A DNA stretch of 64,000 bases, taken from the NCBI GenBank assembly GCA_024347015.1, contig AP024889.1:1798001-1862000 (forward strand), read 5' to 3'. The stretch is from Vibrio pectenicida. GTDB lineage: Bacteria; Pseudomonadota; Gammaproteobacteria; Enterobacterales; Vibrionaceae. A program made the translations under genes and the position numbers. The notes under the pieces were generated by a model. The model was not told the origin of the DNA. It searched no databases and was given only the letters and a program-made list of their open reading frames with translations. The first letter of the stretch is position 1. The number at the start of each line of letters is the position of its first letter. Positions 37,830-64,000 of this stretch are shown one piece after another.

Positions 37830-37852
37830 TTCTAATTACCATAGAATCGAAT

Positions 37853-37878: not shown

Positions 37879-37902
37879 GGGGTAAATAAATGGGGCTTGG
37901 AA

Positions 37903-39147: not shown

Positions 39148-39165
39148 AATTTTCTATTACCTAAG

Positions 39166-42572: not shown

Positions 42573-45500
42573 TCAACTGTCAACTTTCAAAATTTGAGTA
42601 AGCGTATTGAGTTCATTAACAATAGTATCATTGACAATCAAACCGGCAGCTTCAAATGAAGATATTACCCCCTCTAGAATAACAGTTTGATCTGTACCGT
42701 CATCACTGACTGTTAAGACTACATCATTTTCATCAACAGAAAGTTCAATATTATTAATCAAGTCTGCAACTTCAACATCGTTATCATTTAAGATGTCTCT
42801 AAAATCAAGCAAATCAGTTCCAAGATCAAAGTTTTTAATCACGTCAGTACCACTATCTAAAGTAGAGTCTAGCCACTTAAATACATTATCACTACTATCA
42901 CCTAACAAAATTTGATTCCCGAGTTGTGCAGTTATCTCATTATCAGCTGGTATCACTCCGTATTGAGGAGAATCATTAACATCAATAGTTACTGTAGCTT
43001 CACTACTCACTGAAGAATTAGAATCTACTGCTATGTAATCAAAAGTTACATCTTCTGTTATTTGTTGGCTTCCTGAAAGATACCTAAGCTCCCAACTACC
43101 ACCTGTAGATGTAAGCTCCATAGACACTATAGGGTTGTTTGGTGATGAATAGGTAAAATCATACAAAATTTGACTGTTGCCCGTATGGCCTGGATCTTTT
43201 TGGTATTGCTCAACGTGAGTCGTATTATCAGCAAAAGTATAAGTCACTTCGACATAAACGTTACTATTGGCCGTAAATGCTCCGCCTAACCCATCTAAGC
43301 CAAATGTCACAACATCAAGAGGATTACCTGACAAATCAACGATCAGGGTTTCTTGTTTATTCATACCTGAACCATCTGTATCACCAATCCCCCAACCAAC
43401 ATGTCCACCGTTACCTGTGTACTGTTTTAGCGGCTTGCCATTATTACCAGTAATACTCACTCCAACAGTATTACCATTATCTAAAGTTATCAGTCTTTCT
43501 GTATCACTGACATAAACACCCCAACCGAAAAAACCATTATTAAGCATAATATTAGCAGTATCACCACTATAGCCTATTTCAAATGAAGGACCAGCACCGG
43601 GGACATAGCTGATGTTATCTGGATTCAATAATTTTGCATTATCAACTGACTGACCAATTGTGTGAAGATCTGACGCAGTCAGCACTCTAGTATCACCTGA
43701 TTGTTCTGTGTAAAGCAAAGTACCATAGGTTGGTAACGATGTGATCATCACATTCAGTTTAACACTGTTAAAGTCATCATCTTCGTCCGAAATACGGTCC
43801 AAAGCAACGTCATTTGAATCGAAAATAACAGGCACTGTTATTAAATTGTCAGCATCAATACTAAAACTTTCGGCAATGGGTAACTCATTAACGTTGTCCT
43901 CTGACAACATAACGTTAACATCTGTAGATTTTTGAGCACCAAACCCAGTAGCTTCTGTTGCTGTCACTACAATATTATGGATATTTGAAAGAGCCTCAAA
44001 ATTATTGGTAAACGCTGTGACCCCCGCGGCGGTTAAACTGATGGCGCCACTGGTGGGGTTAATTTCAAACAGCGCGTTGCCGCCGCTGCTGACATTGGTG
44101 CTGATGCTGTAAGTGACGTTTTCGCCATCGGCGTCACTGGCTGAGACAGAGCCCAGCACATCACTGTCAACGCGGTTCTCGTTGTAGCTAAAGGCGTAGT
44201 TCGCTTGCCCAAACTCGGGCGCGTTATCGTCGAGGTTCAACTCGGTCAGCGCCACATTGACGGTGGCGGTTTGCACGCTGCCAAGGCCCGCGTCTTCAGT
44301 GGCCGTGACGACTAAGTTGTGCACGTTGGGGTTAAGCTCAAAGTCGTTGGCAAAGGCGCTCACGCCAGCCGCGGTTAAACTGATGTCACCCGAATTTTCA
44401 TCAATCTCAAACAGCGCGTTGCCGCCGCTGCTGACGTTGGTGCTGATGCTGTAGGTGACGTTTTCGCCATCGGCGTCACTGGCGGACACCGTGCCCAGCA
44501 CATCACTGTCAACGCGGTTCTCGTTGTAACTAAAGGCGTAGTTCGCCTGAGCAAACTCGGGCGCGTTATCGTCGAGGTTCAATTCGGTCAACGCCACATT
44601 GACGGTGGCGGTTTGCACGCTGCCAAGGCCCGCGTCTTCAGTGGCCGTGACGACTAAGTTGTGCACGTTGGGGTTAAGCTCAAAGTCGTTGGCAAAGGCG
44701 CTCACGCCAGCCGCGGTTAAACTGATGTCACCCGAATTTTCATCAATCTCAAACAGCGCGTTGCCGCCGCTGCTGACGTTGGTGCTGATGCTGTAGGTGA
44801 CGTTTTCGCCATCGGCGTCACTGGCGGACACCGTGCCCAGCACATCACTGTCAACGCGGTTCTCGTTGTAGCTAAAGGCGTAACTCGCTTGCCCAAACTC
44901 GGGCGCGTTGTCATCGAGGTTCAACTCGGTCAGCGCCACATTGACGGTGGCGGTTTGCATGCTGCCAAGGCCCGCGTCTTCAGTCGCGGTCACCACTAAG
45001 TTGTGCACGTTGGGGTTAAGCTCAAAGTCGTTGGCAAAGGCGCTCACGCCAGCCGCGGTTAAACTGATGGCGCCTGAGGTTGCATCGATTTCAAACAGAT
45101 CGTTGCCGCCGCTGCTGACGTTGGTGCTGATGCTGTAGGTGACGTTTTCGCCATCGGCGTCACTGGCGGACACCGTGCCCAGCACATCACTGTCAACGCG
45201 GTTTTCGTTGTAACTAAAGGCGTAGCTCGCTTGCCCAAACTCGGGCGCGTTGTCATCGAGGTTCAACTCGGTCAGCGCCACATTGACGGTGGCGGTTTGC
45301 ACGCTGCCAAGGCCCGCGTCTTCAGTCGCGGTCACCACTAAGTTGTGCACGTTGGGGTTAAGCTCAAAGTCGTTGGCAAAGGCGCTCACGCCAGCCGCGG
45401 TTAAACTGATGTCACCCGAATTTTCATCAATCTCAAACAGCGCGTTGCCGCCGCTGCTGACGTTGGTGCTGATGCTGTAGGTGACGTTTTCGCCATCGGC

Positions 45501-48500
45501 GTCACTGGCGGACACCGTGCCCAGCACATCACTGTCAACGCGGTTTTCGTTGTAACTAAAGGCGTAGCTCGCTTGCCCAAACTCGGGCGCGTTGTCGTCG
45601 AGGTTCAACTCGGTCAGCGCCACATTGACGGTGGCGGTTTGCACGCTGCCAAGGCCCGCATCTTCAGTCGCGGTCACCACTAAGTTGTGCACGTTGGGGT
45701 TGAGCTCAAAGTCGTTAGCAAAGGCCGAGACCCCCGCGGCGGTTAAACTGATGGCGCCACTGATGGGGTTAATTTCAAACAGCGCGTTGCCGCCACTGCT
45801 GACATTGGTGCTGATGCTGTAAGTAACATTCTCGCCATCGGCGTCACTGGCGGACACCGTGCCCAGCACATCGGTAGCTGCGCGGTTTTCATTGTAACTA
45901 AAAGCGTAGCTCGCCTGATTAAACTCGGGCGCGTTGTCGTCGAGGTTCAATTCGGTCAGCGCCACATTGACGGTGGCGGTTTGCACGCTGCCAAGGCCCG
46001 CGTCTTCAGTCGCGGTCACCACTAAGTTGTGCACGTTGGGGTTAAGCTCAAAGTCGTTAGCAAAGGCCGAGACCCCCGCGGCGGTTAAACTGATGGCGCC
46101 ACTGGTGGGGTTAATTTCAAACAGCGCGTTGCCGCCGCTGCTAACATTGGTGCTGATGCTGTAGGTGACATTCTCGCCATCGGCGTCACTGGCTGAGACG
46201 GTACCAATCACCGCCGAGTCGGTTGAATTTTCATTGTAACTAAAGGCGTAGCTCGCTTGCCCAAACTCGGGCGCGTTGTCGTCGAGGTTCAACTCGGTCA
46301 ACGCCACATTGACGGTGGCGGTTTGCACACTGCCAAGGCCCGCGTCTTCAGTCGCGGTGACGACTAAGTTGTGCACGTTGGGGTTGAGCTCAAAGTCGTT
46401 GGCAAAGGCGCTCACGCCAGCCGCGGTGAGACTGATGGCGCCTGAGGTTGCATCGATTTCAAACAGATCGTTGCCGCCGCTGCTGACGTTGGTGCTGATG
46501 CTGTAGGTGACGTTTTCACCATCGGCGTCACTGGCTGAGACGGTACCAATCACCGCCGAGTCGGTTGAATTTTCATTGTAACTAAAGGCGTAACTCGCTT
46601 GCCCAAACTCGGGCGCGTTGTCATCGAGGTTCAATTCGGTCAGCGCCACACTGACGGTGGCGGTTTGCACGCTGCCAAGGCCGGCGTCTTCAGTGGCCGT
46701 CACCACTAAATTGTGCACATTGGGGTTAAGCTCAAAGTCATTAGCAAAAGCCGAGACCCCCGCGGCGGTTAAACTGATGGCGCCACTGGTGGGGTTAATT
46801 TCAAACAGCGCGTTGCCGCCACTGCTGACGTTGGTGCTGATGCTGTAGGTGACATTTTCGCCATCGGCGTCACTGGCCGAGACGGTACCAATCACCGCCG
46901 AGTCGGTTGAATTTTCATTGTAACTAAAGGCGTAGTTCGCTTGCCCAAACTCGGGCGCGTTGTCGTCGAGGTTCAATTCAGTCAGCGCCACATTGACGGT
47001 GGCGGTTTGCACGCTGTCAAGGCCCGCGTCTTCAGTGGCCGTGACGACTAAGTTGTGCACATTGGGGTTAAGCTCAAAGTCATTAGCAAAGGCGCTCACG
47101 CCAGCCGCGGTGAGACTGATGGCGCCTGAGGTTGCATCGATTTCAAACAGATCGTTGCCGCCGCTGCTGACGTTGGTGCTGATGCTGTAGGTGACGTTTT
47201 CGCCATCGGCGTCACTGGCTGAGACAGAGCCCAGCACATCGCTGTCAACGCGGTTTTCGTTGTAACTAAAGGCGTAGCTCGCTTGCCCAAACTCGGGCGC
47301 GTTGTCGTCGAGGTTTAATTCGGTCAGCGCCACATTGACGGTGGCGGTTTGCACGCTGCCAAGGCCGGCGTCTTCAGTCGCGGTCACCACCAAGTTGTGC
47401 ACGTTGGGGTTAAGCTCAAAGTCATTAGCAAAGGCCGAGACCCCCGCGGCGGTTAAGCTGATGGCGCCACTGGTGGGGTTAATTTCAAACAGCGCGTTGC
47501 CGCCGCTGCTGACGTTGGTGCTGATGCTGTAAGTAACATTCTCGCCATCGGCGTCACTGGCGGACACCGTGCCCAGCACATCGCTGTCAACGCGGTTTTC
47601 GTTGTAGCTAAAGGCGTAACTCGCTTGCCCAAACTCGGGCGCGTTGTCGTCGAGGTTTAATTCGGTCAGCGCCACATTGACGGTGGCGGTTTGCACGCTG
47701 CCAAGGCCCGCGTCTTCAGTCGCGGTCACCACCAAGTTGTGCACATTGGGGTTAAGTTCAAAGTCATTAGCAAAGGCGCTCACGCCAGCCGCGGTGAGAC
47801 TGATGGCGCCTGAGGTTGCATCGATTTCAAACAGATCGTTGCCGCCGCTGCTGACGTTGGTGCTGATGCTGTAGGTGACATTTTCGCCATCGGCGTCACT
47901 GGCGGACACCGTGCCCAGCACATCACTGTCAACGCGGTTTTCGTTGTAGCTAAAGGCGTAGCTCGCTTGCCCAAACTCGGGCGCGTTGTCGTCGAGGTTC
48001 AATTCAGTCAGCGCCACATTGACGGTGGCGGTTTGCACGCTGCCAAGGCCGGCGTCTTCAGTGGCCGTGACGACTAAGTTGTGCACGTTGGGGTTGAGCT
48101 CAAAGTCGTTAGCAAAGGCCGAGACCCCCGCGGCGGTGAGACTGATGGCGCCTGAGGTTGCATCGATTTCAAACAGATCGTTGCCGCCGCTGCTGACGTT
48201 GGTGCTGATGCTGTAAGTGACGTTTTCGCCATCGGCGTCACTGGCCGAGACGGTACCAATCACCGCCGAGTCGGTTGAATTTTCATTGTAACTAAAGGCG
48301 TAACTCGCTTGCCCAAACTCGGGCGCGTTATCGTCGAGGTTCAACTCGGTCAGCGCCACATTGACGGTGGCGGTTTGCACACTGCCAAGGCCCGCGTCTT
48401 CAGTCGCGGTCACCACCAAGTTGTGCACATTGGGGTTAAGTTCAAAGTCATTAGCAAAGGCGCTCACGCCAGCCGCGGTGAGACTGATGGCGCCTGAGGT

Positions 48501-51500
48501 TGCATCGATTTCAAACAGATCGTTGCCGCCGCTGCTGACGTTGGTGCTGATGCTGTAGGTAACGTTTTCGCCATCGGCGTCACTGGCGGACACCGTGCCC
48601 AGCACATCACTGTCAACGCGGTTTTCGTTGTAACTAAAGGCGTAACTCGCTTGCCCAAACTCGGGCGCGTTATCATCGAGATTCAATTCGATCAGCGCCA
48701 CATTGACGGTGGCGGTTTGCACGCTGCCAAGGCCCGCGTCTTCAGTCGCGGTCACCACCAAGTTGTGCACATTGGGGTTAAGCTCAAAGTCGTTAGCAAA
48801 GGCCGAGACCCCCGCGGCGGTTAAACTGATGGCGCCACTGATGGGGTTAATTTCAAACAGCGCGTTGCCGCCACTGCTGACATTGGTGCTGATGCTGTAA
48901 GTAACATTCTCGCCATCGGCGTCACTGGCGGACACCGTGCCCAGCACATCGGTAGCTGCGCGGTTTTCATTGTAACTAAAAGCGTAGCTCGCCTGATTAA
49001 ACTCGGGCGCGTTGTCGTCGAGGTTCAATTCGGTCAGCGCCACATTGACGGTGGCGGTTTGCACGCTGCCAAGGCCCGCGTCTTCAGTCGCGGTCACCAC
49101 TAAGTTGTGCACGTTGGGGTTAAGCTCAAAGTCGTTAGCAAAGGCCGAGACCCCCGCGGCGGTTAAACTGATGGCGCCACTGGTGGGGTTAATTTCAAAC
49201 AGCGCGTTGCCGCCGCTGCTAACATTGGTGCTGATGCTGTAGGTGACATTCTCGCCATCGGCGTCACTGGCTGAGACGGTACCAATCACCGCCGAGTCGG
49301 TTGAATTTTCATTGTAACTAAAGGCGTAGCTCGCTTGCCCAAACTCGGGCGCGTTGTCATCGAGGTTCAACTCGGTCAGCGCCACATTGACGGTGGCGGT
49401 TTGCATGCTGCCAAGGCCCGCGTCTTCAGTCGCGGTCACCACTAAGTTGTGCACGTTGGGGTTAAGCTCAAAGTCGTTGGCAAAGGCGCTCACGCCAGCC
49501 GCGGTTAAACTGATGGCGCCTGAGGTTGCATCGATTTCAAACAGATCGTTGCCGCCGCTGCTGACGTTGGTGCTGATGCTGTAGGTGACGTTTTCGCCAT
49601 CGGCGTCACTGGCGGACACCGTGCCCAGCACATCACTGTCAACGCGGTTTTCGTTGTAACTAAAGGCGTAGCTCGCTTGCCCAAACTCGGGCGCGTTGTC
49701 ATCGAGGTTCAACTCGGTCAGCGCCACATTGACGGTGGCGGTTTGCACGCTGCCAAGGCCCGCGTCTTCAGTCGCGGTCACCACTAAGTTGTGCACGTTG
49801 GGGTTAAGCTCAAAGTCGTTGGCAAAGGCGCTCACGCCAGCCGCGGTTAAACTGATGTCACCCGAATTTTCATCAATCTCAAACAGCGCGTTGCCGCCGC
49901 TGCTGACGTTGGTGCTGATGCTGTAGGTGACGTTTTCGCCATCGGCGTCACTGGCGGACACCGTGCCCAGCACATCACTGTCAACGCGGTTCTCGTTGTA
50001 GCTAAAGGCGTAACTCGCTTGCCCAAACTCGGGCGCGTTGTCATCGAGGTTCAACTCGGTCAGCGCCACATTGACGGTGGCGGTTTGCATGCTGCCAAGG
50101 CCCGCGTCTTCAGTCGCGGTCACCACTAAGTTGTGCACGTTGGGGTTAAGCTCAAAGTCGTTGGCAAAGGCGCTCACGCCAGCCGCGGTTAAACTGATGG
50201 CGCCTGAGGTTGCATCGATTTCAAACAGATCGTTGCCGCCGCTGCTGACGTTGGTGCTGATGCTGTAGGTGACGTTTTCGCCATCGGCGTCACTGGCGGA
50301 CACCGTGCCCAGCACATCACTGTCAACGCGGTTTTCGTTGTAACTAAAGGCGTAGCTCGCTTGCCCAAACTCGGGCGCGTTGTCGTCGAGGTTCAACTCG
50401 GTCAGCGCCACATTGACGGTGGCGGTTTGCACGCTGCCAAGGCCCGCATCTTCAGTCGCGGTCACCACTAAGTTGTGCACGTTGGGGTTGAGCTCAAAGT
50501 CGTTAGCAAAGGCCGAGACCCCCGCGGCGGTTAAACTGATGGCGCCACTGATGGGGTTAATTTCAAACAGCGCGTTGCCGCCACTGCTGACATTGGTGCT
50601 GATGCTGTAAGTAACATTCTCGCCATCGGCGTCACTGGCGGACACCGTGCCCAGCACATCGGTAGCTGCGCGGTTTTCATTGTAACTAAAAGCGTAGCTC
50701 GCCTGATTAAACTCGGGCGCGTTGTCGTCGAGGTTCAATTCGGTCAGCGCCACATTGACGGTGGCGGTTTGCACGCTGCCAAGGCCCGCGTCTTCAGTCG
50801 CGGTCACCACTAAGTTGTGCACGTTGGGGTTAAGCTCAAAGTCGTTAGCAAAGGCCGAGACCCCCGCGGCGGTTAAACTGATGGCGCCACTGGTGGGGTT
50901 AATTTCAAACAGCGCGTTGCCGCCACTGCTGACGTTGGTGCTGATGCTGTAGGTGACATTTTCGCCATCGGCGTCACTGGCCGAGACGGTACCAATCACC
51001 GCCGAGTCGGTTGAATTTTCATTGTAACTAAAGGCGTAGTTCGCTTGCCCAAACTCGGGCGCGTTGTCGTCGAGGTTCAATTCAGTCAGCGCCACATTGA
51101 CGGTGGCGGTTTGCACGCTGTCAAGGCCCGCGTCTTCAGTGGCCGTGACGACTAAGTTGTGCACATTGGGGTTAAGCTCAAAGTCATTAGCAAAGGCCGA
51201 GACCCCCACGGCGGTTAAACTGATGGCGCCACTGGTGGGGTTAATTTCAAACAGCGCGTTGCCGCCGCTGCTAACATTGGTGCTGATGCTGTAAGTGACG
51301 TTTTCACCATCGGCGTCACTGGCGGACACCGTGCCCAGCACATCGCTGTCAACGCGGTTCTCGTTGTAACTAAAGGCGTAGTTCGCCTGAGCAAACTCGG
51401 GCGCGTTATCGTCGAGGTTCAATTCGGTCAACGCCACATTGACGGTGGCGGTTTGCACGCTGCCAAGGCCCGCGTCTTCAGTGGCCGTGACGACTAAGTT

Positions 51501-54500
51501 GTGCACGTTGGGGTTAAGCTCAAAGTCGTTGGCAAAGGCGCTCACGCCAGCCGCGGTTAAACTGATGTCACCCGAATTTTCATCAATCTCAAACAGCGCG
51601 TTGCCGCCGCTGCTGACGTTGGTGCTGATGCTGTAGGTGACGTTTTCGCCATCGGCGTCACTGGCGGACACCGTGCCCAGCACATCACTGTCAACGCGGT
51701 TTTCGTTGTAACTAAAGGCGTAGCTCGCTTGCCCAAACTCGGGCGCGTTGTCGTCGAGGTTCAACTCGGTCAGCGCCACATTGACGGTGGCGGTTTGCAC
51801 GCTGCCAAGGCCCGCATCTTCAGTCGCGGTCACCACTAAGTTGTGCACGTTGGGGTTGAGCTCAAAGTCGTTAGCAAAGGCCGAGACCCCCGCGGCGGTT
51901 AAACTGATGGCGCCACTGATGGGGTTAATTTCAAACAGCGCGTTGCCGCCACTGCTGACATTGGTGCTGATGCTGTAAGTAACATTCTCGCCATCGGCGT
52001 CACTGGCGGACACCGTGCCCAGCACATCGGTAGCTGCGCGGTTTTCATTGTAACTAAAAGCGTAGCTCGCCTGATTAAACTCGGGCGCGTTGTCGTCGAG
52101 GTTCAATTCGGTCAGCGCCACATTGACGGTGGCGGTTTGCACGCTGCCAAGGCCCGCGTCTTCAGTCGCGGTCACCACTAAGTTGTGCACGTTGGGGTTA
52201 AGCTCAAAGTCGTTAGCAAAGGCCGAGACCCCCGCGGCGGTTAAACTGATGGCGCCACTGGTGGGGTTAATTTCAAACAGCGCGTTGCCGCCACTGCTGA
52301 CGTTGGTGCTGATGCTGTAGGTGACATTTTCGCCATCGGCGTCACTGGCCGAGACGGTACCAATCACCGCCGAGTCGGTTGAATTTTCATTGTAACTAAA
52401 GGCGTAGTTCGCTTGCCCAAACTCGGGCGCGTTGTCGTCGAGGTTCAATTCAGTCAGCGCCACATTGACGGTGGCGGTTTGCACGCTGTCAAGGCCCGCG
52501 TCTTCAGTGGCCGTGACGACTAAGTTGTGCACATTGGGGTTAAGCTCAAAGTCATTAGCAAAGGCGCTCACGCCAGCCGCGGTGAGACTGATGGCGCCTG
52601 AGGTTGCATCGATTTCAAACAGATCGTTGCCGCCGCTGCTGACGTTGGTGCTGATGCTGTAGGTGACGTTTTCGCCATCGGCGTCACTGGCTGAGACAGA
52701 GCCCAGCACATCGCTGTCAACGCGGTTTTCGTTGTAACTAAAGGCGTAGCTCGCTTGCCCAAACTCGGGCGCGTTGTCGTCGAGGTTTAATTCGGTCAGC
52801 GCCACATTGACGGTGGCGGTTTGCACGCTGCCAAGGCCGGCGTCTTCAGTCGCGGTCACCACCAAGTTGTGCACGTTGGGGTTAAGCTCAAAGTCATTAG
52901 CAAAGGCCGAGACCCCCGCGGCGGTTAAGCTGATGGCGCCACTGGTGGGGTTAATTTCAAACAGCGCGTTGCCGCCGCTGCTGACGTTGGTGCTGATGCT
53001 GTAAGTAACATTCTCGCCATCGGCGTCACTGGCGGACACCGTGCCCAGCACATCGCTGTCAACGCGGTTTTCGTTGTAGCTAAAGGCGTAACTCGCTTGC
53101 CCAAACTCGGGCGCGTTGTCGTCGAGGTTTAATTCGGTCAGCGCCACATTGACGGTGGCGGTTTGCACGCTGCCAAGGCCCGCGTCTTCAGTCGCGGTCA
53201 CCACCAAGTTGTGCACATTGGGGTTAAGTTCAAAGTCATTAGCAAAGGCGCTCACGCCAGCCGCGGTGAGACTGATGGCGCCTGAGGTTGCATCGATTTC
53301 AAACAGATCGTTGCCGCCGCTGCTGACGTTGGTGCTGATGCTGTAGGTGACATTTTCGCCATCGGCGTCACTGGCGGACACCGTGCCCAGCACATCACTG
53401 TCAACGCGGTTTTCGTTGTAGCTAAAGGCGTAGCTCGCTTGCCCAAACTCGGGCGCGTTGTCGTCGAGGTTCAATTCAGTCAGCGCCACATTGACGGTGG
53501 CGGTTTGCACGCTGCCAAGGCCGGCGTCTTCAGTGGCCGTGACGACTAAGTTGTGCACGTTGGGGTTGAGCTCAAAGTCGTTAGCAAAGGCCGAGACCCC
53601 CGCGGCGGTGAGACTGATGGCGCCTGAGGTTGCATCGATTTCAAACAGATCGTTGCCGCCGCTGCTGACGTTGGTGCTGATGCTGTAAGTGACGTTTTCG
53701 CCATCGGCGTCACTGGCCGAGACGGTACCAATCACCGCCGAGTCGGTTGAATTTTCATTGTAACTAAAGGCGTAACTCGCTTGCCCAAACTCGGGCGCGT
53801 TATCGTCGAGGTTCAACTCGGTCAGCGCCACATTGACGGTGGCGGTTTGCACACTGCCAAGGCCCGCGTCTTCAGTCGCGGTCACCACCAAGTTGTGCAC
53901 ATTGGGGTTAAGTTCAAAGTCATTAGCAAAGGCGCTCACGCCAGCCGCGGTGAGACTGATGGCGCCTGAGGTTGCATCGATTTCAAACAGATCGTTGCCG
54001 CCGCTGCTGACGTTGGTGCTGATGCTGTAGGTAACGTTTTCGCCATCGGCGTCACTGGCGGACACCGTGCCCAGCACATCACTGTCAACGCGGTTTTCGT
54101 TGTAACTAAAGGCGTAACTCGCTTGCCCAAACTCGGGCGCGTTATCATCGAGATTCAATTCGATCAGCGCCACATTGACGGTGGCGGTTTGCACGCTGCC
54201 AAGGCCCGCGTCTTCAGTCGCGGTCACCACCAAGTTGTGCACATTGGGGTTAAGCTCAAAGTCGTTAGCAAAGGCCGAGACCCCCGCGGCGGTTAAACTG
54301 ATGGCGCCACTGATGGGGTTAATTTCAAACAGCGCGTTGCCGCCACTGCTGACATTGGTGCTGATGCTGTAAGTAACATTCTCGCCATCGGCGTCACTGG
54401 CGGACACCGTGCCCAGCACATCGGTAGCTGCGCGGTTTTCATTGTAACTAAAAGCGTAGCTCGCCTGATTAAACTCGGGCGCGTTGTCGTCGAGGTTCAA

Positions 54501-57500
54501 TTCGGTCAGCGCCACATTGACGGTGGCGGTTTGCACGCTGCCAAGGCCCGCGTCTTCAGTCGCGGTCACCACTAAGTTGTGCACGTTGGGGTTAAGCTCA
54601 AAGTCGTTAGCAAAGGCCGAGACCCCCGCGGCGGTTAAACTGATGGCGCCACTGGTGGGGTTAATTTCAAACAGCGCGTTGCCGCCGCTGCTAACATTGG
54701 TGCTGATGCTGTAGGTGACATTCTCGCCATCGGCGTCACTGGCTGAGACGGTACCAATCACCGCCGAGTCGGTTGAATTTTCATTGTAACTAAAGGCGTA
54801 GCTCGCTTGCCCAAACTCGGGCGCGTTGTCGTCGAGGTTCAACTCGGTCAACGCCACATTGACGGTGGCGGTTTGCACACTGCCAAGGCCCGCGTCTTCA
54901 GTCGCGGTGACGACTAAGTTGTGCACGTTGGGGTTGAGCTCAAAGTCGTTGGCAAAGGCGCTCACGCCAGCCGCGGTGAGACTGATGGCGCCTGAGGTTG
55001 CATCGATTTCAAACAGATCGTTGCCGCCGCTGCTGACGTTGGTGCTGATGCTGTAGGTGACGTTTTCACCATCGGCGTCACTGGCTGAGACGGTACCAAT
55101 CACCGCCGAGTCGGTTGAATTTTCATTGTAACTAAAGGCGTAACTCGCTTGCCCAAACTCGGGCGCGTTATCGTCGAGGTTTAATTCGGTCAGCGCCACA
55201 TTGACGGTGGCGGTTTGCACGCTGCCAAGGCCGGCGTCTTCAGTCGCGGTCACCACCAAGTTGTGCACGTTGGGGTTAAGCTCAAAGTCATTAGCAAAGG
55301 CCGAGACCCCCGCGGCGGTTAAGCTGATGGCGCCACTGGTGGGGTTAATTTCAAACAGCGCGTTGCCGCCGCTGCTGACGTTGGTGCTGATGCTGTAAGT
55401 AACATTCTCGCCATCGGCGTCACTGGCGGACACCGTGCCCAGCACATCACTGTCAACGCGGTTCTCGTTGTAGCTAAAGGCGTAACTCGCTTGCCCAAAC
55501 TCGGGTGCGTTGTTATCGAGGTTCAACTCGGTCAGCGCCACATTGACGGTGGCGGTTTGCATGCTGCCAAGGCCCGCGTCTTCAGTCGCGGTGACGACTA
55601 AGTTGTGCACGTTGGGGTTAAGCTCAAAGTCATTAGCAAAGGCCGAGACCCCCGCGGCGGTTAAGCTGATGGCGCCACTGGTGGGGTTAATTTCAAACAG
55701 CGCGTTGCCGCCGCTGCTGACGTTGGTGCTGATGCTGTAAGTAACATTCTCGCCATCGGCGTCACTGGCGGACACCGTGCCCAGCACATCGTTGTCAACG
55801 CGGTTTTCGTTATAGCTAAAGGCGTAACTCGCTTGCCCAAACTCGGGCGCGTTATCGTCGAGGTTCAACTCGGTCAACGCCACATTGACGGTGGCGGTTT
55901 GCACGCTGCCAAGGCCCGCGTCTTCAGTGGCCGTGACGACTAAGTTGTGCACGTTGGGGTTAAGCTCAAAGTCATTAGCAAAGGCGCTCACGCCAGCCGC
56001 GGTGAGACTGATGGCGCCTGAGGTTGCATCGATTTCAAACAGATCGTTGCCGCCGCTGCTGACGTTGGTGCTGATGCTGTAGGTGACGTTTTCGCCATCG
56101 GCGTCACTGGCGGACACCGTGCCCAGCACATCACTGTCAACGCGGTTTTCGTTGTAGCTAAAGGCGTAGCTCGCTTGCCCAAACTCGGGCGCGTTATCAT
56201 CGAGGTTCAATTCGGTCAGCGCCACATTGACGGTGGCGGTTTGCACGCTGCCAAGGCCGGCGTCTTCAGTCGCGGTCACCACCAAGTTGTGCACGTTGGG
56301 GTTAAGCTCAAAGTCGTTAGCAAAGGCCGAGACCCCCGCGGCGGTTAAGCTGATGTCACCCGAATTTTCATCAATCTCAAACAGATCGTTGCCGCCACTG
56401 CTGACGTTGGTGCTGATGCTGTAAGTAACATTCTCGCCATCGGCGTCACTGGCGGACACCGTGCCCAGCACATCGTTGTCAACGCGGTTTTCGTTATAGC
56501 TAAAGGCGTAACTCGCTTGCCCAAACTCGGGCGCGTTATCGTCGAGGTTCAACTCGGTCAACGCCACATTGACGGTGGCGGTTTGCACGCTGCCAAGGCC
56601 CGCGTCTTCAGTGGCCGTGACGACTAAGTTGTGCACGTTGGGGTTAAGCTCAAAGTCATTAGCAAAGGCGCTCACGCCAGCCGCGGTGAGACTGATGGCG
56701 CCTGAGGTTGCATCGATTTCAAACAGATCGTTGCCGCCGCTGCTGACGTTGGTGCTGATGCTGTAGGTGACGTTTTCGCCATCGGCGTCACTGGCGGACA
56801 CCGTACCCAGTACATCACTGTCAACGCGGTTTTCGTTGTAGCTAAAGGCGTAGCTGGCTTGCCCAAACTCGGGCGCGTTATCATCGAGGTTCAATTCAGT
56901 CAGCGCCACATTGACGGTGGCGGTTTGCACGCTGCCAAGGCCGGCGTCTTCAGTCGCGGTCACCACCAAGTTGTGCACGTTGGGGTTAAGCTCAAAGTCG
57001 TTAGCAAAGGCCGAGACCCCCGCGGCGGTTAAGCTGATGTCACCCGAATTTTCATCAATCTCAAACAGATCGTTGCCGCCACTGCTGACGTTGGTGCTGA
57101 TGCTGTAGGTGACGTTTTCGCCATCGGCGTCACTGGCTGAAATGGTACCAATCACCGCCGAGTCGGTTGAATTTTCATTGTAACTAAAGGCGTAGCTGGC
57201 TTGCCCAAACTCGGGCGCGTTGTCGTCCAAATTGAGTTCAGTCAACGCCACATTGACGGTGGCGGTTTGCACACTGCCAAGGCCCGCGTCTTCAGTCGCG
57301 GTCACCACCAAATTGTGCACATTGGGGTTAAGCTCAAAGTCATTAGCAAAGGCCGAGACCCCCGCGGCGGTTAAACTGATGTCACCCGAATTTTCATCAA
57401 TCTCAAACAGATCGTTGCCGCCGCTGCTGACGTTGGTGCTGATGCTGTAGGTGACGTTTTCGCCATCGGCGTCACTGGCTGAGACAGAGCCCAGCACATC

Positions 57501-60500: not shown

Positions 60501-63500
60501 GCTGCTGACGTTGGTGCTGATGCTGTAGGTGACGTTTTCGCCATCGGCGTCACTGGCGGACACCGTGCCCAGCACATCACTGTCAACGCGGTTCTCGTTG
60601 TAACTAAAGGCGTAGTTCGCCTGAGCAAACTCGGGCGCGTTATCGTCGAGGTTCAATTCGGTCAACGCCACATTGACGGTGGCGGTTTGCACGCTGCCAA
60701 GGCCCGCGTCTTCAGTGGCGGTCACCACTAAGTTGTGCACGTTGGGGTTAAGCTCAAAGTCGTTGGCAAAGGCGCTCACGCCAGCCGCGGTTAAACTGAT
60801 GGCGCCTGAGGTTGCATCGATTTCAAACAGATCGTTGCCGCCGCTGCTGACGTTGGTGCTGATGCTGTAGGTGACGTTTTCGCCATCGGCGTCACTGGCG
60901 GACACCGTGCCCAGCACATCACTGTCAACGCGGTTTTCGTTGTAACTAAAGGCGTAGCTCGCTTGCCCAAACTCGGGCGCGTTGTCATCGAGGTTCAACT
61001 CGGTCAGCGCCACATTGACGGTGGCGGTTTGCACGCTGCCAAGGCCCGCGTCTTCAGTCGCGGTCACCACTAAGTTGTGCACGTTGGGGTTAAGCTCAAA
61101 GTCGTTGGCAAAGGCGCTCACGCCAGCCGCGGTTAAACTGATGTCACCCGAATTTTCATCAATCTCAAACAGCGCGTTGCCGCCGCTGCTGACGTTGGTG
61201 CTGATGCTGTAGGTGACGTTTTCGCCATCGGCGTCACTGGCGGACACCGTGCCCAGCACATCACTGTCAACGCGGTTTTCGTTGTAACTAAAGGCGTAGC
61301 TCGCTTGCCCAAACTCGGGCGCGTTGTCGTCGAGGTTCAACTCGGTCAGCGCCACATTGACGGTGGCGGTTTGCACGCTGCCAAGGCCCGCATCTTCAGT
61401 CGCGGTCACCACTAAGTTGTGCACGTTGGGGTTGAGCTCAAAGTCGTTAGCAAAGGCCGAGACCCCCGCGGCGGTTAAACTGATGGCGCCACTGATGGGG
61501 TTAATTTCAAACAGCGCGTTGCCGCCACTGCTGACATTGGTGCTGATGCTGTAAGTAACATTCTCGCCATCGGCGTCACTGGCGGACACCGTGCCCAGCA
61601 CATCGGTAGCTGCGCGGTTTTCATTGTAACTAAAAGCGTAGCTCGCCTGATTAAACTCGGGCGCGTTGTCGTCGAGGTTCAATTCGGTCAGCGCCACATT
61701 GACGGTGGCGGTTTGCACGCTGCCAAGGCCCGCGTCTTCAGTCGCGGTCACCACTAAGTTGTGCACGTTGGGGTTAAGCTCAAAGTCGTTAGCAAAGGCC
61801 GAGACCCCCGCGGCGGTTAAACTGATGGCGCCACTGGTGGGGTTAATTTCAAACAGCGCGTTGCCGCCGCTGCTAACATTGGTGCTGATGCTGTAGGTGA
61901 CATTCTCGCCATCGGCGTCACTGGCGGACACCGTGCCCAGCACATCGTTGTCAACGCGGTTTTCGTTATAGCTAAAGGCGTAACTCGCTTGCCCAAACTC
62001 GGGCGCGTTATCGTCGAGGTTCAACTCGGTCAACGCCACATTGACGGTGGCGGTTTGCACGCTGCCAAGGCCCGCGTCTTCAGTGGCCGTGACGACTAAG
62101 TTGTGCACGTTGGGGTTAAGCTCAAAGTCGTTGGCAAAGGCGCTCACGCCAGCCGCGGTGAGACTGATGGCGCCTGAGGTTGCATCGATTTCAAACAGAT
62201 CGTTGCCGCCGCTGCTGACGTTGGTGCTGATGCTGTAGGTGACGTTTTCGCCATCGGCGTCACTGGCGGACACCGTACCCAGTACATCACTGTCAACGCG
62301 GTTTTCGTTGTAGCTAAAGGCGTAGCTGGCTTGCCCAAACTCGGGCGCGTTATCATCGAGGTTCAATTCAGTCAGCGCCACATTGACGGTGGCGGTTTGC
62401 ACGCTGCCAAGGCCGGCGTCTTCAGTCGCGGTCACCACCAAGTTGTGCACGTTGGGGTTAAGCTCAAAGTCGTTAGCAAAGGCCGAGACCCCCGCGGCGG
62501 TTAAGCTGATGTCACCCGAATTTTCATCAATCTCAAACAGATCGTTGCCGCCACTGCTGACGTTGGTGCTGATGCTGTAGGTGACGTTTTCGCCATCGGC
62601 GTCACTGGCTGAAATGGTACCAATCACCGCCGAGTCGGTTGAATTTTCATTGTAACTAAAGGCGTAGCTGGCTTGCCCAAACTCGGGCGCGTTGTCGTCC
62701 AAATTGAGTTCAGTCAACGCCACATTGACGGTGGCGGTTTGCACACTGCCAAGGCCCGCGTCTTCAGTCGCGGTCACCACCAAATTGTGCACATTGGGGT
62801 TAAGCTCAAAGTCATTAGCAAAGGCCGAGACCCCCGCGGCGGTTAAACTGATGTCACCCGAATTTTCATCAATCTCAAACAGATCGTTGCCGCCGCTGCT
62901 GACGTTGGTGCTGATGCTGTAGGTGACGTTTTCGCCATCGGCGTCACTGGCTGAGACAGAGCCCAGCACATCGCTGTCAACGCGGTTTTCGTTATAGCTA
63001 AAGGCGTAACTCGCTTGCCCAAACTCTGGCGCGTTATCGTCGAGGTTCAACTCGGTCAACGCCACATTGACGGTGGCGGTTTGCACGCTGCCAAGGCCCG
63101 CGTCTTCAGTGGCGGTCACCACTAAGTTGTGCACATTGGGGTTAAGCTCAAAGTCGTTAGCAAAGGCCGAGACCCCCGCGGCGGTTAAGCTGATGGCGCC
63201 ACTGGTGGGGTTAATTTCAAACAGCGCGTTGCCGCCGCTGCTAACATTGGTGCTGATGCTGTAGGTGACGTTTTCGCCATCGGCGTCACTGGCGGACACC
63301 GTACCCAGTACATCACTGTCAACGCGGTTTTCGTTATAGCTAAAGGCGTAGCTCGCTTGCCCAAACTCGGGCGCGTTATCGTCGAGGTTCAATTCAGTCA
63401 GCGCCACATTGACGGTGGCGGTTTGCACGCTGCCAAGGCCGGCGTCTTCAGTCGCTGTCACCACCAAGTTGTGCACATTGGGGTTAAGCTCAAAGTCGTT

Positions 63501-64000
63501 AGCAAAGGCCGAGACCCCCGCGGCGGTTAAGCTGATGGCGCCACTGGTGGGGTTAATTTCAAACAGCGCGTTGCCGCCACTGCTGACATTGGTGCTGATG
63601 CTGTAGGTGACGTTTTCGCCATCGGCGTCACTGGCTGACACCGTGCCCAGCACATCGCTGTCCGCTGAGTTCTCGTTGTAACTAAAGCTGTAATTGATAC
63701 CATCGTTGGGCGTAAATACTGGCGAGTTATCATCAACAAGCAAAGTATCTGCAACAAGTAAATTATCTGCAATGATAGCTTCGGTTACCAGATCTAGAAG
63801 CGCTAAGCTCTGAGTTTCAGATAACCCCTGGGACTCGAGGCCTACTGTATCAAAATCAGTGCTTGCTCTAGTTTGTATGGCAGTTCTGTCGACATCTCCA
63901 GTACCAGTAGGACTTGAACCGTTTTGACCACCCGCTGCTGTTGCGAAGTCTTCATTTTGCGTTGGGTCAACACCTTGTTCTATTTGTTCGAATATCGATG
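42573..64000 (-). CDS. Giant LapA-like cadherin-repeat adhesin (5' end beyond window)
   Basis: One frame of at least 7,141 codons that is still open at the right edge. At the N-terminal side, QGVDPTQNEDFATAAGG is a LapA-type retention/LapG segment with TAAG, followed by a stretch resembling residues 94-140 of the left-edge adhesin. Then come 58 cadherin-like repeats of 114 residues (43960-63700), each with ASDADGENVTYSIS and LNLDDNAPEF calcium-type motifs. A non-repeated region follows: a linker (about 43640-43960), a unique region (about 43030-43640) and the C-terminal type I secretion domain (42573-42960, SSDNVFKWLDSTLDSGTDVI). A TTG at 63743 could start a shorter frame but is internal. Secretion and anchoring genes are not in the window. 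A long calcium-stiffened surface fibre for attachment is inferred. Confidence 0.93.
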   Translation of the reverse strand, partial: SIFEQIEQGVDPTQNEDFATAAGGQNGSSPTGTGDVDRTAIQTRASTDFDTVGLESQGLSETQSLALLDLVTEAIIADNLLVADTLLVDDNSPVFTPNDGINYSFSYNENSADSDVLGTVSASDADGENVTYSISTNVSSGGNALFEINPTSGAISLTAAGVSAFANDFELNPNVHNLVVTATEDAGLGSVQTATVNVALTELNLDDNAPEFGQASYAFSYNENRVDSDVLGTVSASDADGENVTYSISTNVSSGGNALFEINPTSGAISLTAAGVSAFANDFELNPNVHNLVVTATEDAGLGSVQTATVNVALTELNLDDNAPEFGQASYAFSYNENRVDSDVLGSVSASDADGENVTYSISTNVSSGGNDLFEIDENSGDISLTAAGVSAFANDFELNPNVHNLVVTATEDAGLGSVQTATVNVALTELNLDDNAPEFGQASYAFSYNENSTDSAVIGTISASDADGENVTYSISTNVSSGGNDLFEIDENSGDISLTAAGVSAFANDFELNPNVHNLVVTATEDAGLGSVQTATVNVALTELNLDDNAPEFGQASYAFSYNENRVDSDVLGTVSASDADGENVTYSISTNVSSGGNDLFEIDATSGAISLTAAGVSAFANDFELNPNVHNLVVTATEDAGLGSVQTATVNVALTELNLDDNAPEFGQASYAFSYNENRVDNDVLGTVSASDADGENVTYSISTNVSSGGNALFEINPTSGAISLTAAGVSAFANDFELNPNVHNLVVTATEDAGLGSVQTATVNVALTELNLDDNAPEFNQASYAFSYNENRAATDVLGTVSASDADGENVTYSISTNVSSGGNALFEINPISGAISLTAAGVSAFANDFELNPNVHNLVVTATEDAGLGSVQTATVNVALTELNLDDNAPEFGQASYAFSYNENRVDSDVLGTVSASDADGENVTYSISTNVSSGGNALFEIDENSGDISLTAAGVSAFANDFELNPNVHNLVVTATEDAGLGSVQTATVNVALTELNLDDNAPEFGQASYAFSYNENRVDSDVLGTVSASDADGENVTYSISTNVSSGGNDLFEIDATSGAISLTAAGVSAFANDFELNPNVHNLVVTATEDAGLGSVQTATVNVALTELNLDDNAPEFAQANYAFSYNENRVDSDVLGTVSASDADGENVTYSISTNVSSGGNALFEIDENSGDISLTAAGVSAFANDFELNPNVHNLVVTATEDAGLGSVQTATVNVALTELNLDDNAPEFAQANYAFSYNENRVDSDVLGTVSASDADGENVTYSISTNVSSGGNALFEINPTSGAISLTAVGVSAFANDFELNPNVHNLVVTATEDAGLDSVQTATVNVALTELNLDDNAPEFGQANYAFSYNENSTDSAVIGTVSASDADGENVTYSISTNVSSGGNALFEINPTSGAISLTAAGVSAFANDFELNPNVHNLVVTATEDAGLGSVKTATVSVALTELNLDDNAPEFGQANYAFSYNENRVDSDVLGTVSASDADGENVTYSISTNVSSGGNDLFEIDATSGAISLTAAGVSAFANDFELNPNVHNLVVTATEDAGLGSVQTATVNVALTELNLDDNAPEFGQASYAFSYNENRVDSDVLGSVSASDADGENVTYSISTNVSSGGNALFEIDENSGDISLTAAGVSAFANDFELNPNVHNLVVTATENAGLGSMQTATVNVALTELNLDDNAPEFGQASYAFSYNENRVDSDVLGTVSASDADGENVTYSISTNISSGGNDLFEIDATSGAISLTAAGVSAFANDFELNPNVHNLVVTATEDAGLGSVQTATVNVALTELNLDDNAPEFGQASYAFSYNENRVDSDVLGSVSASDADGENVTYSISTNVSSGGNALFEIDENSGAISLTAAGVSAFANDFELNPNVHNLVVTATEDAGLGSVQTATVNVALTELNLDDNAPEFGQASYAFSYNENRVDSDVLGSVSASDADGENVTYSISTNVSSGGNDLFEIDENSGDISLTAAGVSAFANDFELNPNVHNLVVTATEDAGLGSVQTATVNVALTELNLDDNAPEFGQASYAFSYNENRVDSDVLGSVSASDADGENVTYSISTNVSSGGNALFEIDENSGAISLTAAGVSAFANDFELNPNVHNLVVTATEDAGLGSVQTATVNVALTELNLDDNAPEFGQASYAFSYNENRVDSDVLGSVSASDADGENVTYSISTNVSSGGNDLFEIDENSGDISLTAAGVSAFANDFELNPNVHNLVVTATEDAGLGSVQTATVNVALTELNLDDNAPEFGQASYAFSYNENSTDSAVIGTISASDADGENVTYSISTNVSSGGNDLFEIDENSGDISLTAAGVSAFANDFELNPNVHNLVVTATEDAGLGSVQTATVNVALTELNLDDNAPEFGQASYAFSYNENRVDSDVLGTVSASDADGENVTYSISTNVSSGGNDLFEIDATSGAISLTAAGVSAFANDFELNPNVHNLVVTATEDAGLGSVQTATVNVALTELNLDDNAPEFGQASYAFSYNENRVDNDVLGTVSASDADGENVTYSISTNVSSGGNDLFEIDENSGDISLTAAGVSAFANDFELNPNVHNLVVTATEDAGLGSVQTATVNVALTELNLDDNAPEFGQASYAFSYNENRVDSDVLGTVSASDADGENVTYSISTNVSSGGNDLFEIDATSGAISLTAAGVSAFANDFELNPNVHNLVVTATEDAGLGSVQTATVNVALTELNLDDNAPEFGQASYAFSYNENRVDNDVLGTVSASDADGENVTYSISTNVSSGGNALFEINPTSGAISLTAAGVSAFANDFELNPNVHNLVVTATEDAGLGSMQTATVNVALTELNLDNNAPEFGQASYAFSYNENRVDSDVLGTVSASDADGENVTYSISTNVSSGGNALFEINPTSGAISLTAAGVSAFANDFELNPNVHNLVVTATEDAGLGSVQTATVNVALTELNLDDNAPEFGQASYAFSYNENSTDSAVIGTVSASDADGENVTYSISTNVSSGGNDLFEIDATSGAISLTAAGVSAFANDFELNPNVHNLVVTATEDAGLGSVQTATVNVALTELNLDDNAPEFGQASYAFSYNENSTDSAVIGTVSASDADGENVTYSISTNVSSGGNALFEINPTSGAISLTAAGVSAFANDFELNPNVHNLVVTATEDAGLGSVQTATVNVALTELNLDDNAPEFNQASYAFSYNENRAATDVLGTVSASDADGENVTYSISTNVSSGGNALFEINPISGAISLTAAGVSAFANDFELNPNVHNLVVTATEDAGLGSVQTATVNVALIELNLDDNAPEFGQASYAFSYNENRVDSDVLGTVSASDADGENVTYSISTNVSSGGNDLFEIDATSGAISLTAAGVSAFANDFELNPNVHNLVVTATEDAGLGSVQTATVNVALTELNLDDNAPEFGQASYAFSYNENSTDSAVIGTVSASDADGENVTYSISTNVSSGGNDLFEIDATSGAISLTAAGVSAFANDFELNPNVHNLVVTATEDAGLGSVQTATVNVALTELNLDDNAPEFGQASYAFSYNENRVDSDVLGTVSASDADGENVTYSISTNVSSGGNDLFEIDATSGAISLTAAGVSAFANDFELNPNVHNLVVTATEDAGLGSVQTATVNVALTELNLDDNAPEFGQASYAFSYNENRVDSDVLGTVSASDADGENVTYSISTNVSSGGNALFEINPTSGAISLTAAGVSAFANDFELNPNVHNLVVTATEDAGLGSVQTATVNVALTELNLDDNAPEFGQASYAFSYNENRVDSDVLGSVSASDADGENVTYSISTNVSSGGNDLFEIDATSGAISLTAAGVSAFANDFELNPNVHNLVVTATEDAGLDSVQTATVNVALTELNLDDNAPEFGQANYAFSYNENSTDSAVIGTVSASDADGENVTYSISTNVSSGGNALFEINPTSGAISLTAAGVSAFANDFELNPNVHNLVVTATEDAGLGSVQTATVNVALTELNLDDNAPEFNQASYAFSYNENRAATDVLGTVSASDADGENVTYSISTNVSSGGNALFEINPISGAISLTAAGVSAFANDFELNPNVHNLVVTATEDAGLGSVQTATVNVALTELNLDDNAPEFGQASYAFSYNENRVDSDVLGTVSASDADGENVTYSISTNVSSGGNALFEIDENSGDISLTAAGVSAFANDFELNPNVHNLVVTATEDAGLGSVQTATVNVALTELNLDDNAPEFAQANYAFSYNENRVDSDVLGTVSASDADGENVTYSISTNVSSGGNALFEINPTSGAISLTAVGVSAFANDFELNPNVHNLVVTATEDAGLDSVQTATVNVALTELNLDDNAPEFGQANYAFSYNENSTDSAVIGTVSASDADGENVTYSISTNVSSGGNALFEINPTSGAISLTAAGVSAFANDFELNPNVHNLVVTATEDAGLGSVQTATVNVALTELNLDDNAPEFNQASYAFSYNENRAATDVLGTVSASDADGENVTYSISTNVSSGGNALFEINPISGAISLTAAGVSAFANDFELNPNVHNLVVTATEDAGLGSVQTATVNVALTELNLDDNAPEFGQASYAFSYNENRVDSDVLGTVSASDADGENVTYSISTNVSSGGNDLFEIDATSGAISLTAAGVSAFANDFELNPNVHNLVVTATEDAGLGSMQTATVNVALTELNLDDNAPEFGQASYAFSYNENRVDSDVLGTVSASDADGENVTYSISTNVSSGGNALFEIDENSGDISLTAAGVSAFANDFELNPNVHNLVVTATEDAGLGSVQTATVNVALTELNLDDNAPEFGQASYAFSYNENRVDSDVLGTVSASDADGENVTYSISTNVSSGGNDLFEIDATSGAISLTAAGVSAFANDFELNPNVHNLVVTATEDAGLGSMQTATVNVALTELNLDDNAPEFGQASYAFSYNENSTDSAVIGTVSASDADGENVTYSISTNVSSGGNALFEINPTSGAISLTAAGVSAFANDFELNPNVHNLVVTATEDAGLGSVQTATVNVALTELNLDDNAPEFNQASYAFSYNENRAATDVLGTVSASDADGENVTYSISTNVSSGGNALFEINPISGAISLTAAGVSAFANDFELNPNVHNLVVTATEDAGLGSVQTATVNVALIELNLDDNAPEFGQASYAFSYNENRVDSDVLGTVSASDADGENVTYSISTNVSSGGNDLFEIDATSGAISLTAAGVSAFANDFELNPNVHNLVVTATEDAGLGSVQTATVNVALTELNLDDNAPEFGQASYAFSYNENSTDSAVIGTVSASDADGENVTYSISTNVSSGGNDLFEIDATSGAISLTAAGVSAFANDFELNPNVHNLVVTATEDAGLGSVQTATVNVALTELNLDDNAPEFGQASYAFSYNENRVDSDVLGTVSASDADGENVTYSISTNVSSGGNDLFEIDATSGAISLTAAGVSAFANDFELNPNVHNLVVTATEDAGLGSVQTATVNVALTELNLDDNAPEFGQASYAFSYNENRVDSDVLGTVSASDADGENVTYSISTNVSSGGNALFEINPTSGAISLTAAGVSAFANDFELNPNVHNLVVTATEDAGLGSVQTATVNVALTELNLDDNAPEFGQASYAFSYNENRVDSDVLGSVSASDADGENVTYSISTNVSSGGNDLFEIDATSGAISLTAAGVSAFANDFELNPNVHNLVVTATEDAGLDSVQTATVNVALTELNLDDNAPEFGQANYAFSYNENSTDSAVIGTVSASDADGENVTYSISTNVSSGGNALFEINPTSGAISLTAAGVSAFANDFELNPNVHNLVVTATEDAGLGSVQTATVSVALTELNLDDNAPEFGQASYAFSYNENSTDSAVIGTVSASDADGENVTYSISTNVSSGGNDLFEIDATSGAISLTAAGVSAFANDFELNPNVHNLVVTATEDAGLGSVQTATVNVALTELNLDDNAPEFGQASYAFSYNENSTDSAVIGTVSASDADGENVTYSISTNVSSGGNALFEINPTSGAISLTAAGVSAFANDFELNPNVHNLVVTATEDAGLGSVQTATVNVALTELNLDDNAPEFNQASYAFSYNENRAATDVLGTVSASDADGENVTYSISTNVSSGGNALFEINPISGAISLTAAGVSAFANDFELNPNVHNLVVTATEDAGLGSVQTATVNVALTELNLDDNAPEFGQASYAFSYNENRVDSDVLGTVSASDADGENVTYSISTNVSSGGNALFEIDENSGDISLTAAGVSAFANDFELNPNVHNLVVTATEDAGLGSVQTATVNVALTELNLDDNAPEFGQASYAFSYNENRVDSDVLGTVSASDADGENVTYSISTNVSSGGNDLFEIDATSGAISLTAAGVSAFANDFELNPNVHNLVVTATEDAGLGSMQTATVNVALTELNLDDNAPEFGQASYAFSYNENRVDSDVLGTVSASDADGENVTYSISTNVSSGGNALFEIDENSGDISLTAAGVSAFANDFELNPNVHNLVVTATEDAGLGSVQTATVNVALTELNLDDNAPEFAQANYAFSYNENRVDSDVLGTVSASDADGENVTYSISTNVSSGGNALFEIDENSGDISLTAAGVSAFANDFELNPNVHNLVVTATEDAGLGSVQTATVNVALTELNLDDNAPEFGQANYAFSYNENRVDSDVLGSVSASDADGENVTYSISTNVSSGGNALFEINPTSGAISLTAAGVTAFTNNFEALSNIHNIVVTATEATGFGAQKSTDVNVMLSEDNVNELPIAESFSIDADNLITVPVIFDSNDVALDRISDEDDDFNSVKLNVMITSLPTYGTLLYTEQSGDTRVLTASDLHTIGQSVDNAKLLNPDNISYVPGAGPSFEIGYSGDTANIMLNNGFFGWGVYVSDTERLITLDNGNTVGVSITGNNGKPLKQYTGNGGHVGWGIGDTDGSGMNKQETLIVDLSGNPLDVVTFGLDGLGGAFTANSNVYVEVTYTFADNTTHVEQYQKDPGHTGNSQILYDFTYSSPNNPIVSMELTSTGGSWELRYLSGSQQITEDVTFDYIAVDSNSSVSSEATVTIDVNDSPQYGVIPADNEITAQLGNQILLGDSSDNVFKWLDSTLDSGTDVIKNFDLGTDLLDFRDILNDNDVEVADLINNIELSVDENDVVLTVSDDGTDQTVILEGVISSFEAAGLIVNDTIVNELNTLTQILKVDS
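43030..43640 (-). other. Unique domain near the C terminus of the giant adhesin
   Basis: About 200 residues that match neither the repeats nor the secretion domain. They include FEIGYSGDTANIMLNNG, FGWGVYVSDTERLITLDNG, GHVGWGIGDTDGSGMNKQ and STGGSWELRYLSGSQQI. The region is aromatic and glycine-rich. In other RTX adhesins the ligand-binding domains lie here, at the end that is outermost after type I secretion. Family not recognised. Confidence 0.6.
46751..49359 (-). repeat. Segmental duplication within the array (copy 1, pairs with 52223-54831)
   Basis: Lines compared between this block and 52223-54831 are identical at an offset of 5,472 bp, which is 16 units. Divergence starts at about 46750 (aaaag versus aaagg) and 49360 (tcatcg versus tcgtcg). 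A second pair at the same offset is about 56668-57728 and 62140-63200. Not every base was checked. Confidence 0.7.
52223..54831 (-). repeat. Segmental duplication within the array (copy 2, pairs with 46751-49359)
   Basis: This is the partner block of 46751-49359, 16 units away. It carries the same order of unit variants, including a rare Thr-to-Ile change (VALIELN) present in both copies at the same place. Confidence 0.7.
63930..63941 (-). other. LapG-type cleavage motif (TAAG)
   Basis: These bases encode Thr-Ala-Ala-Gly in the context DPTQNEDFATAAGGQNGSS, like the site where LapG cuts LapA between the alanines. The matching position in the left-edge adhesin reads TASG. Confidence 0.75.

Follow-up and report, generated by a model that had tools for sequence, protein, structure and literature searches.

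The 64,000-bp window analyzed here (bases 1,798,001-1,862,000 of the 3.23-Mb contig AP024889.1 in the four-contig, 4.54-Mb genome of Vibrio pectenicida, assembly GCA_024347015.1) ends inside a giant adhesin gene on the minus strand (42573..64000), most of which is an array of cadherin repeats with an unusual composition at silent sites. The frame is open for 7,141 codons between 42573 and 63998 and exits the window; with the next 178 bases of the contig (locus L003) included, it starts at an ATG, at window-equivalent position 64178, and has 7,201 codons. A TTG upstream of the ATG is a possible alternative in-frame start. The single uninterrupted frame of more than 7,100 residues claimed in the original prediction, a note made from the DNA alone, is intact, with no frameshift in 21.6 kb. 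The computed product has a mass of 739 kDa, an isoelectric point of 4.05 and no cysteine, and comprises the N terminus (residues 1-148), 58 cadherin units (149-6763) and a C-terminal piece (6764-7201).

The array (43890..63734, minus strand) was delineated with Tandem Repeats Finder (TRF), linker motifs and Pfam, and consists of cadherin-type units of 114 amino acids (342 bp), enriched in G and C at silent sites. As originally counted, there are 58 units: 58 linker motifs were found, spaced by 114 amino acids in 56 cases and by 117 in one, and TRF reported 57.5 copies of 342 bp at 44019-63687. The repeats, described in the note as cadherin-like, are true cadherins that match the Pfam profile PF00028 with an E value of 1.1e-22. 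The description as near-identical suits the protein (mean identity between units 2-57, 94.5%; minimum, 87.7%) better than the DNA (mean, 89.5%; minimum, 81.6%). Among units 2-58 there are 41 different DNA sequences (40 in units 2-57) and 25 different protein sequences, and divergence is found at the array edges, that is, in the last third of unit 58 and the first residues of unit 1. The NEN and DADG motifs are retained in all 57 of units 2-58, DFE in 56 and TED in 55, and the first and second Asp of the linker in 57 and 56, respectively. We take these positions to be calcium ligands; as such, the putative ligands are conserved in nearly all of units 2-58, and the cadherin rod probably binds calcium and would be stiffened by it.

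At the N terminus, a LapG-type cleavage motif, TAAG (residues 80-83; 63930..63941, minus strand), located by motif and by a match to the retention model NF033682, follows the putative retention module (residues 1 to about 78, largely beyond the window); the LapA-like TAAG segment had been recognized in the original prediction. TAAG is conserved in 11 of the 12 aligned N termini, with TASG in the remaining one, and the adhesin N terminus is 41-69% identical to those of 11 congeneric loci. Counted from the ATG (L003:80-478, minus strand), it has about 13 residues fewer ahead of the retention module than all 11 aligned relatives.

The C-terminal piece, also on the minus strand, includes a split domain (42975..43889) into which a predicted carbohydrate-binding beta-sandwich is inserted near the C terminus (residues 100-276 of the modelled piece; 43062..43592), followed by a presumptive type I secretion target region (42573..42944), assigned from homologues. 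As for the type I secretion C terminus originally claimed, some of the best 120 of 485 homologous proteins carry the name 'Type I secretion C-terminal target domain', but the region has no Pfam or NCBIfam match. Judging from the structural model, the tip domain may bind glycans. The tip insert differs in two relatives (L035 and L036) in which the split domain and the C terminus are kept, so that tips look exchangeable, and a 20,674-aa open frame of a congener (L064; around position 1785954 of G052:C1) has part of the tip domain in common with the adhesin.

A TolC family gene (TolC/LapE) adjoins the adhesin gene in divergent orientation (L003:738-2048) and is followed by an OmpA-like gene and a gene that is presumably nhaA. 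A search for type I secretion genes and for lapD and lapG, proposed together with the original prediction, additionally yielded one cluster (L005), arranged lapC-lapG-lapD-lapB, that encodes an HlyD-type adaptor, LapG, LapD and an LssB-type ABC transporter. This cluster lies away from the adhesin locus, on the 1.20-Mb contig C2, taken as the second chromosome. LapG matches PF06035 above the cut-off and LapD matches PF16448 with 124.8 bits; the matches to the NCBIfam equivalog models for LapG and LapD, NF045674 and NF045673, are below their cut-offs.

Downstream of the adhesin gene lies a norspermidine operon (36696-42069, minus strand) that includes nspC and the genes for carboxynorspermidine dehydrogenase and diaminobutyrate (DABA) aminotransferase/decarboxylase. 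Synteny was examined for 15 fetched congeneric loci. The norspermidine operon is downstream of the adhesin in 7 of the 15, and at least one of the TolC gene and this operon flanks the adhesin in all 15. Because frhA of V. cholerae has the same neighbour arrangement, we place the adhesin gene at the frhA locus, by locus arrangement and not by sequence. In V. cholerae, biofilm formation is driven by norspermidine (PMC10914755). Given the frhA-type locus, the Lap genes, the TAAG site and the predicted carbohydrate-binding domain, the protein is likely an FrhA/LapA-type RTX adhesin, an already known type whose rod is strongly expanded here; the LapA-family membership proposed originally agrees with this anatomy of tandem extenders, TAAG and Lap partners. 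The original prediction mentioned neither the carbohydrate-binding domain predicted here, nor the synteny with frhA, nor the array's composition at silent sites.

The 23 full-length frames that share the C-terminal piece have 774-2,448 aa and 0-10 detected cadherin units. Nine frames with this piece in genomes of 2-5 contigs have 958-2,448 aa, and such frames in six further genomes of 2-5 contigs have 926-1,434 aa. As relatives have 0-10 units, the 58-unit array is an expansion on a conserved scaffold, which shows that the number of cadherin units at one conserved locus can rise from about 0-10 to 58 while the ends stay conserved. The length is exceptional for this locus only. The claim that it is exceptional for the class was ruled out by 8 longer matched frames among 61 congeners, up to 20,674 aa, and by four more found later (8,995, 9,969, 7,563 and 7,394 aa); the Marinomonas ice adhesin described below is larger as well.

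The units of the array are mosaics of short segments. Linkage among the variable sites of units 2-57 decays within one unit, from an r2 of 0.60 at less than 4 bp to 0.03 at more than 230 bp, a decay that none of 500 permutations equalled, and the four-gamete test fails in 2,302 of 3,003 site pairs. This is the pattern expected from repeated recombination. Block duplication has contributed too, as shown by an exact repeat of 2,609 bp found by self-comparison (the maximum over whole-unit offsets only), whose copies lie at 52222..54830 (units 27-34) and, 16 units further on, at 46750..49358, both on the minus strand. Adjacent units were not found to be more similar than remote ones, the main similarity peak being at lag 16.

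This mosaic array differs sharply from the ends of its own gene in silent-site composition. Four-fold degenerate sites are G or C at 2,807 of 3,300 positions (85%) in the array vs 19 of 76 and 48 of 193 (25% each) in the two gene ends; in the consensus unit, the count is 52 of 59. Total GC is 56.8% in the array vs 39.2% in the rest of the gene, and the GC fraction at third codon positions is 0.28-0.43 in the 29 other open reading frames (ORFs) of the window. The switch is seen within a single unit: in unit 58, the homogenized part (nt 1-222; 44010..44231, minus strand) has G or C at 30 of 35 four-fold sites, and the diverged part (nt 223-342; 43890..44009, minus strand) at 3 of 20 (Fisher's test, 2.9e-7), the change falling where homology to the other units fades. 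In the other units, the nt 223-342 stretch has a four-fold G/C fraction of 0.83. Across this boundary, protein domain, gene position and expression are constant; homology varies.

The comparison was extended to the fetched loci: of 98 long acidic frames surveyed there and in the window, 78 hold arrays. Frames had to reach 1,000 aa and be clearly acidic, and loci L007-L025 and the duplicates L033, L034, L036, L038, L039 and L040 were dropped beforehand; the arrays come mostly from matches to the C-terminal piece of the adhesin, and in many cases the array is truncated by the end of the fetched 20-kb stretch. Arrays with at least 4 copies and a mean identity of at least 0.93 were considered homogenized, a 93% threshold that was set after seeing the data. 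Silent-site GC exceeded that of the array's own flanks in all 33 homogenized arrays (mean excess, +0.29), which come from 31 genomes in three Vibrionaceae genera (25 from the genus of the window, 6 and 2 from the others). The 29 more diverged arrays with at least 4 copies had a mean excess of +0.07, positive in 21; 16 arrays with fewer than 4 copies belong to neither set. Across five bins of local identity rising from 0.55-0.75 to 0.98-1, the mean excess was -0.002 (n = 37), 0.009 (29), 0.017 (28), 0.174 (27) and 0.226 (59), with positive values in 23 of 27 and 54 of 59 cases in the two top bins; stretches below 93% local identity have, on average, almost zero excess. The excess was positive in all 16 clusters defined at 50% identity and in all 8 defined at any detectable similarity. 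The array in the window is the most extreme in the survey (+0.60), and homogenized repeats reach up to about 87% silent G/C. Silent-site GC follows homogenization across the 78 arrays and inside unit 58.

Giant adhesin repeats do not all share the GC bias: arrays of the 191/287/383-aa type are less uniform and mostly have about none, with L066 (+0.12), L115 (+0.10), L116 (+0.16) and L124 (+0.19) as exceptions. A class-wide search of 229 genomes with the retention model matched at least 88, at least 14 of these over the cut-off among the matches listed; as these matches are mostly short and weak and comprise few arrays, the pattern is barely tested outside Vibrionaceae. A literature search of open-access titles found no prior report of the silent-site pattern, which does not establish its absence from print.

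GC-biased gene conversion is the best fit for this pattern, although unproven. In the unit of the window, AT-ending optimal codons occur at 0.15x the expectation, GC-ending non-optimal codons at 2.24x and GC-ending optimal codons at 1.67x, with optimal codons derived from 27 ORFs of a 16-kb ribosomal-protein region whose identities were not individually verified. Translational selection for ribosomal-gene codons was rejected as the sole cause because the AT-ending codons preferred by ribosomal genes should rise, yet they fall. At four-fold sites, the pooled shifts towards C (over T, 1.30 ± 0.14) and towards G (over A, 1.26 ± 0.15) are equal. Rare silent alleles in the array (14 A/T vs 2 G/C) agree with GC bias but also with simple AT-biased mutation, and so were not used. 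A similar codon pattern is taken for biased gene conversion by Lassalle 2015, where GC rises with recombination, against AT-ending optimal codons (PMC4450053). That study compared recombining and non-recombining core genes, whereas here the comparison is between repeats within one gene and that gene's own ends. The occurrence of GC-biased gene conversion in bacteria is disputed, with Lassalle 2015 for it and Ely 2021 against, the latter stating that it is unobserved in bacteria (PMC8153448).

On balance, and with some confidence, we favor the account in which a retained type I adhesin with a calcium-binding cadherin rod and a predicted sugar-binding tip carries an array homogenized by GC-favoring recombination. 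Under this account, the adhesin would be secreted through LapBCE, with its N-terminal retention module plugging it in the TolC-like outer-membrane channel, and would be released by LapG under c-di-GMP control through LapD. The predicted carbohydrate-binding domain would be held at the end of the 58-unit rod, and recombination would expand and homogenize the array, favoring G and C at silent sites, presumably through GC-biased gene conversion.

A number of observations weigh against this account. On the protein side, the match to NF033682 (E value of 3.2e-9) scores 37.1 bits vs a curated cut-off of 50 and spans only positions 83-143 of the 145 in the profile; the predicted structure of the retention module is poor (pLDDT of 61), and the best Foldseek row for the N terminus is 5ix9, 'cell surface anchoring domain', with a probability of 0.94 and an E value of 0.23. 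The tip and C terminus have no matches in Pfam, NCBIfam or the PDB by sequence, and a PDB sequence search with the tip and the N terminus gave nothing relevant. On the side of the array, 5 of 59 arrays lack the excess in their 98-100% identical parts; the array statistics ignore kinship, and the arrays are not phylogenetically independent. The two-fold C/T shift (0.83 ± 0.13) is below the four-fold one and is 0.20 ± 0.43 before C, and Phe is encoded by TTT throughout the array (100%). The Lys/Gln/Glu group shows no shift (log odds ratio of 0.02 ± 0.21, or 0.18 ± 0.22 when stratified by the next base), so that a GC push acting on every codon alike does not hold for these; the value is -0.70 ± 0.65 for Lys alone, and Pro is at 0.41 ± 0.38. 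Before G, the Lys/Gln/Glu shift is reversed (-0.62 ± 0.40); with C, T and A as the next base, it is +1.75 ± 0.75, +0.65 ± 0.61 and +0.34 ± 0.41, respectively, the value for A being indistinguishable from zero. Conversion tracts of known parentage were not observed, and GC-favoring selection could leave the same silent-site mark.

Such selection is the strongest competitor, a possibility that we hold to be real but distinctly less probable: the adhesin would be as described, and silent GC would reflect codon or mRNA selection, amplified as homogenization spreads the favored codon. It would account for the Lys/Gln/Glu codons, unshifted as a group and falling short before G, and for the near absence of Shine-Dalgarno-like motifs from units 2-58 (43890-63392), where AGG occurs 1.59 times per kb vs 9.65 in the gene ends and GGAG 0 vs 3.41 times. 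There is also a weak correlation between the codon shifts and the codon preference of ribosomal proteins (rho = 0.34, p = 0.009, n = 57 codons), and the excess grows with copy number over the 33 arrays (rho = 0.58, copies being truncated where the fetched stretch ended). Selection does not readily explain the fall of AT-ending optimal codons together with the rise of GC-ending non-optimal ones, the equality of the four-fold C/T and G/A shifts, or a GC change that stops at a homology boundary inside one domain, in unit 58. Our guess is that NAG before G creates a Shine-Dalgarno-like AGG, harmful when much repeated; the split by next base was run to test this idea, which was formed after the Lys/Gln/Glu exception had appeared. 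From the next-base shifts of these codons and the low AGG frequency of the array, we think that a general GC push acts together with selection against AGG.

It is improbable that the array length is an assembly artefact and the true gene much shorter or longer. Exact internal repeats do reach 2,609 bp, the closest named record (strain E3R11, deposited as Vibrio hepatarius; 96.4% over 10.4 kb) breaks inside unit 58, and relatives in nearly closed genomes carry far fewer units; however, the 41 distinct DNA units form an orderly mosaic in a frame free of frameshifts, and the genome is in 4 contigs, one of which, of 3.23 Mb, crosses the locus. Least probable of all is an array acquired from a GC-rich donor with the donor codon usage retained, which would fit the GC contrast between the array and the rest of the gene (56.8% vs 39.2%) but not the four-fold GC of cadherin units in 14 relatives with the C-terminal piece (0.28-0.78, 10 of them at 0.49-0.58, vs 0.85 here), the recurrence of the pattern in 16 unit clusters (8 at any detectable similarity), or the array's preference for CAA (91%) and TTT (100%), which is unlike the codon usage of GC-rich gammaproteobacteria.

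With homogenized arrays and unique ends in one reading frame, gene position, expression and horizontal origin are largely controlled, so that such genes offer a clean test of recombination as a force driving bacterial DNA towards G/C. Returning to GC-biased gene conversion, we put at about even the chance that it operates in Vibrionaceae with giant adhesin arrays as its natural recorder. If so, repeats driven to up to about 87% silent G/C, compared with about 25% in the unique ends here, provide a test, with its control in the same gene, of a force whose role in bacterial genome evolution is disputed; if selection is responsible instead, the arrays would reveal the codons and motifs, such as AGG, that long mRNAs avoid.

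Among known systems, FrhA of V. cholerae (VC1620 locus) is closest in arrangement, with an adjacent LapE-like gene, lapB, lapC, lapD and lapG on the second chromosome and cadherin repeats (PMC6890996), a norspermidine gene, VC1625, close by locus number (PMC10914755) and a sugar-binding domain borne by a split domain (PMC10865825). According to PMC10865825, FrhA differs in its size of 0.235 MDa, in having far fewer extenders than MpIBP and in a peptide-binding domain, compared with 739 kDa and 58 cadherin units here. MpAFP/MpIBP of Marinomonas primoryensis likewise has a retention module, a long calcium-dependent array of beta-sandwich repeats and distal binding domains, but its repeats are about 120 identical Ig-like units of 104 aa in a 1.5-MDa protein (PMC4083281), whereas the cadherin units here differ by about 10% in DNA. 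AhLap of Aeromonas hydrophila, a 5,047-residue RTX adhesin, also has repeated extenders and a carbohydrate-binding module on a split domain, but possesses two more ligand-binding domains, and its extenders are not termed cadherins in the portion of PMC12077191 covered by a term search.

A second LapA-like adhesin lies at the other end of the window (2-2815, minus strand) and continues into L004:3601-10077, a 3,079-aa frame that matches the retention model with an E value of 6e-9. It contains three 138-aa repeats (414 bp, 97% matches; 482-1713), with a silent-site excess of +0.17. The second frame of GC-rich homogenized arrays can be free of stop codons, over 4,081 aa in L067 and 2,378 aa in L084, which poses a risk for automatic gene calling.
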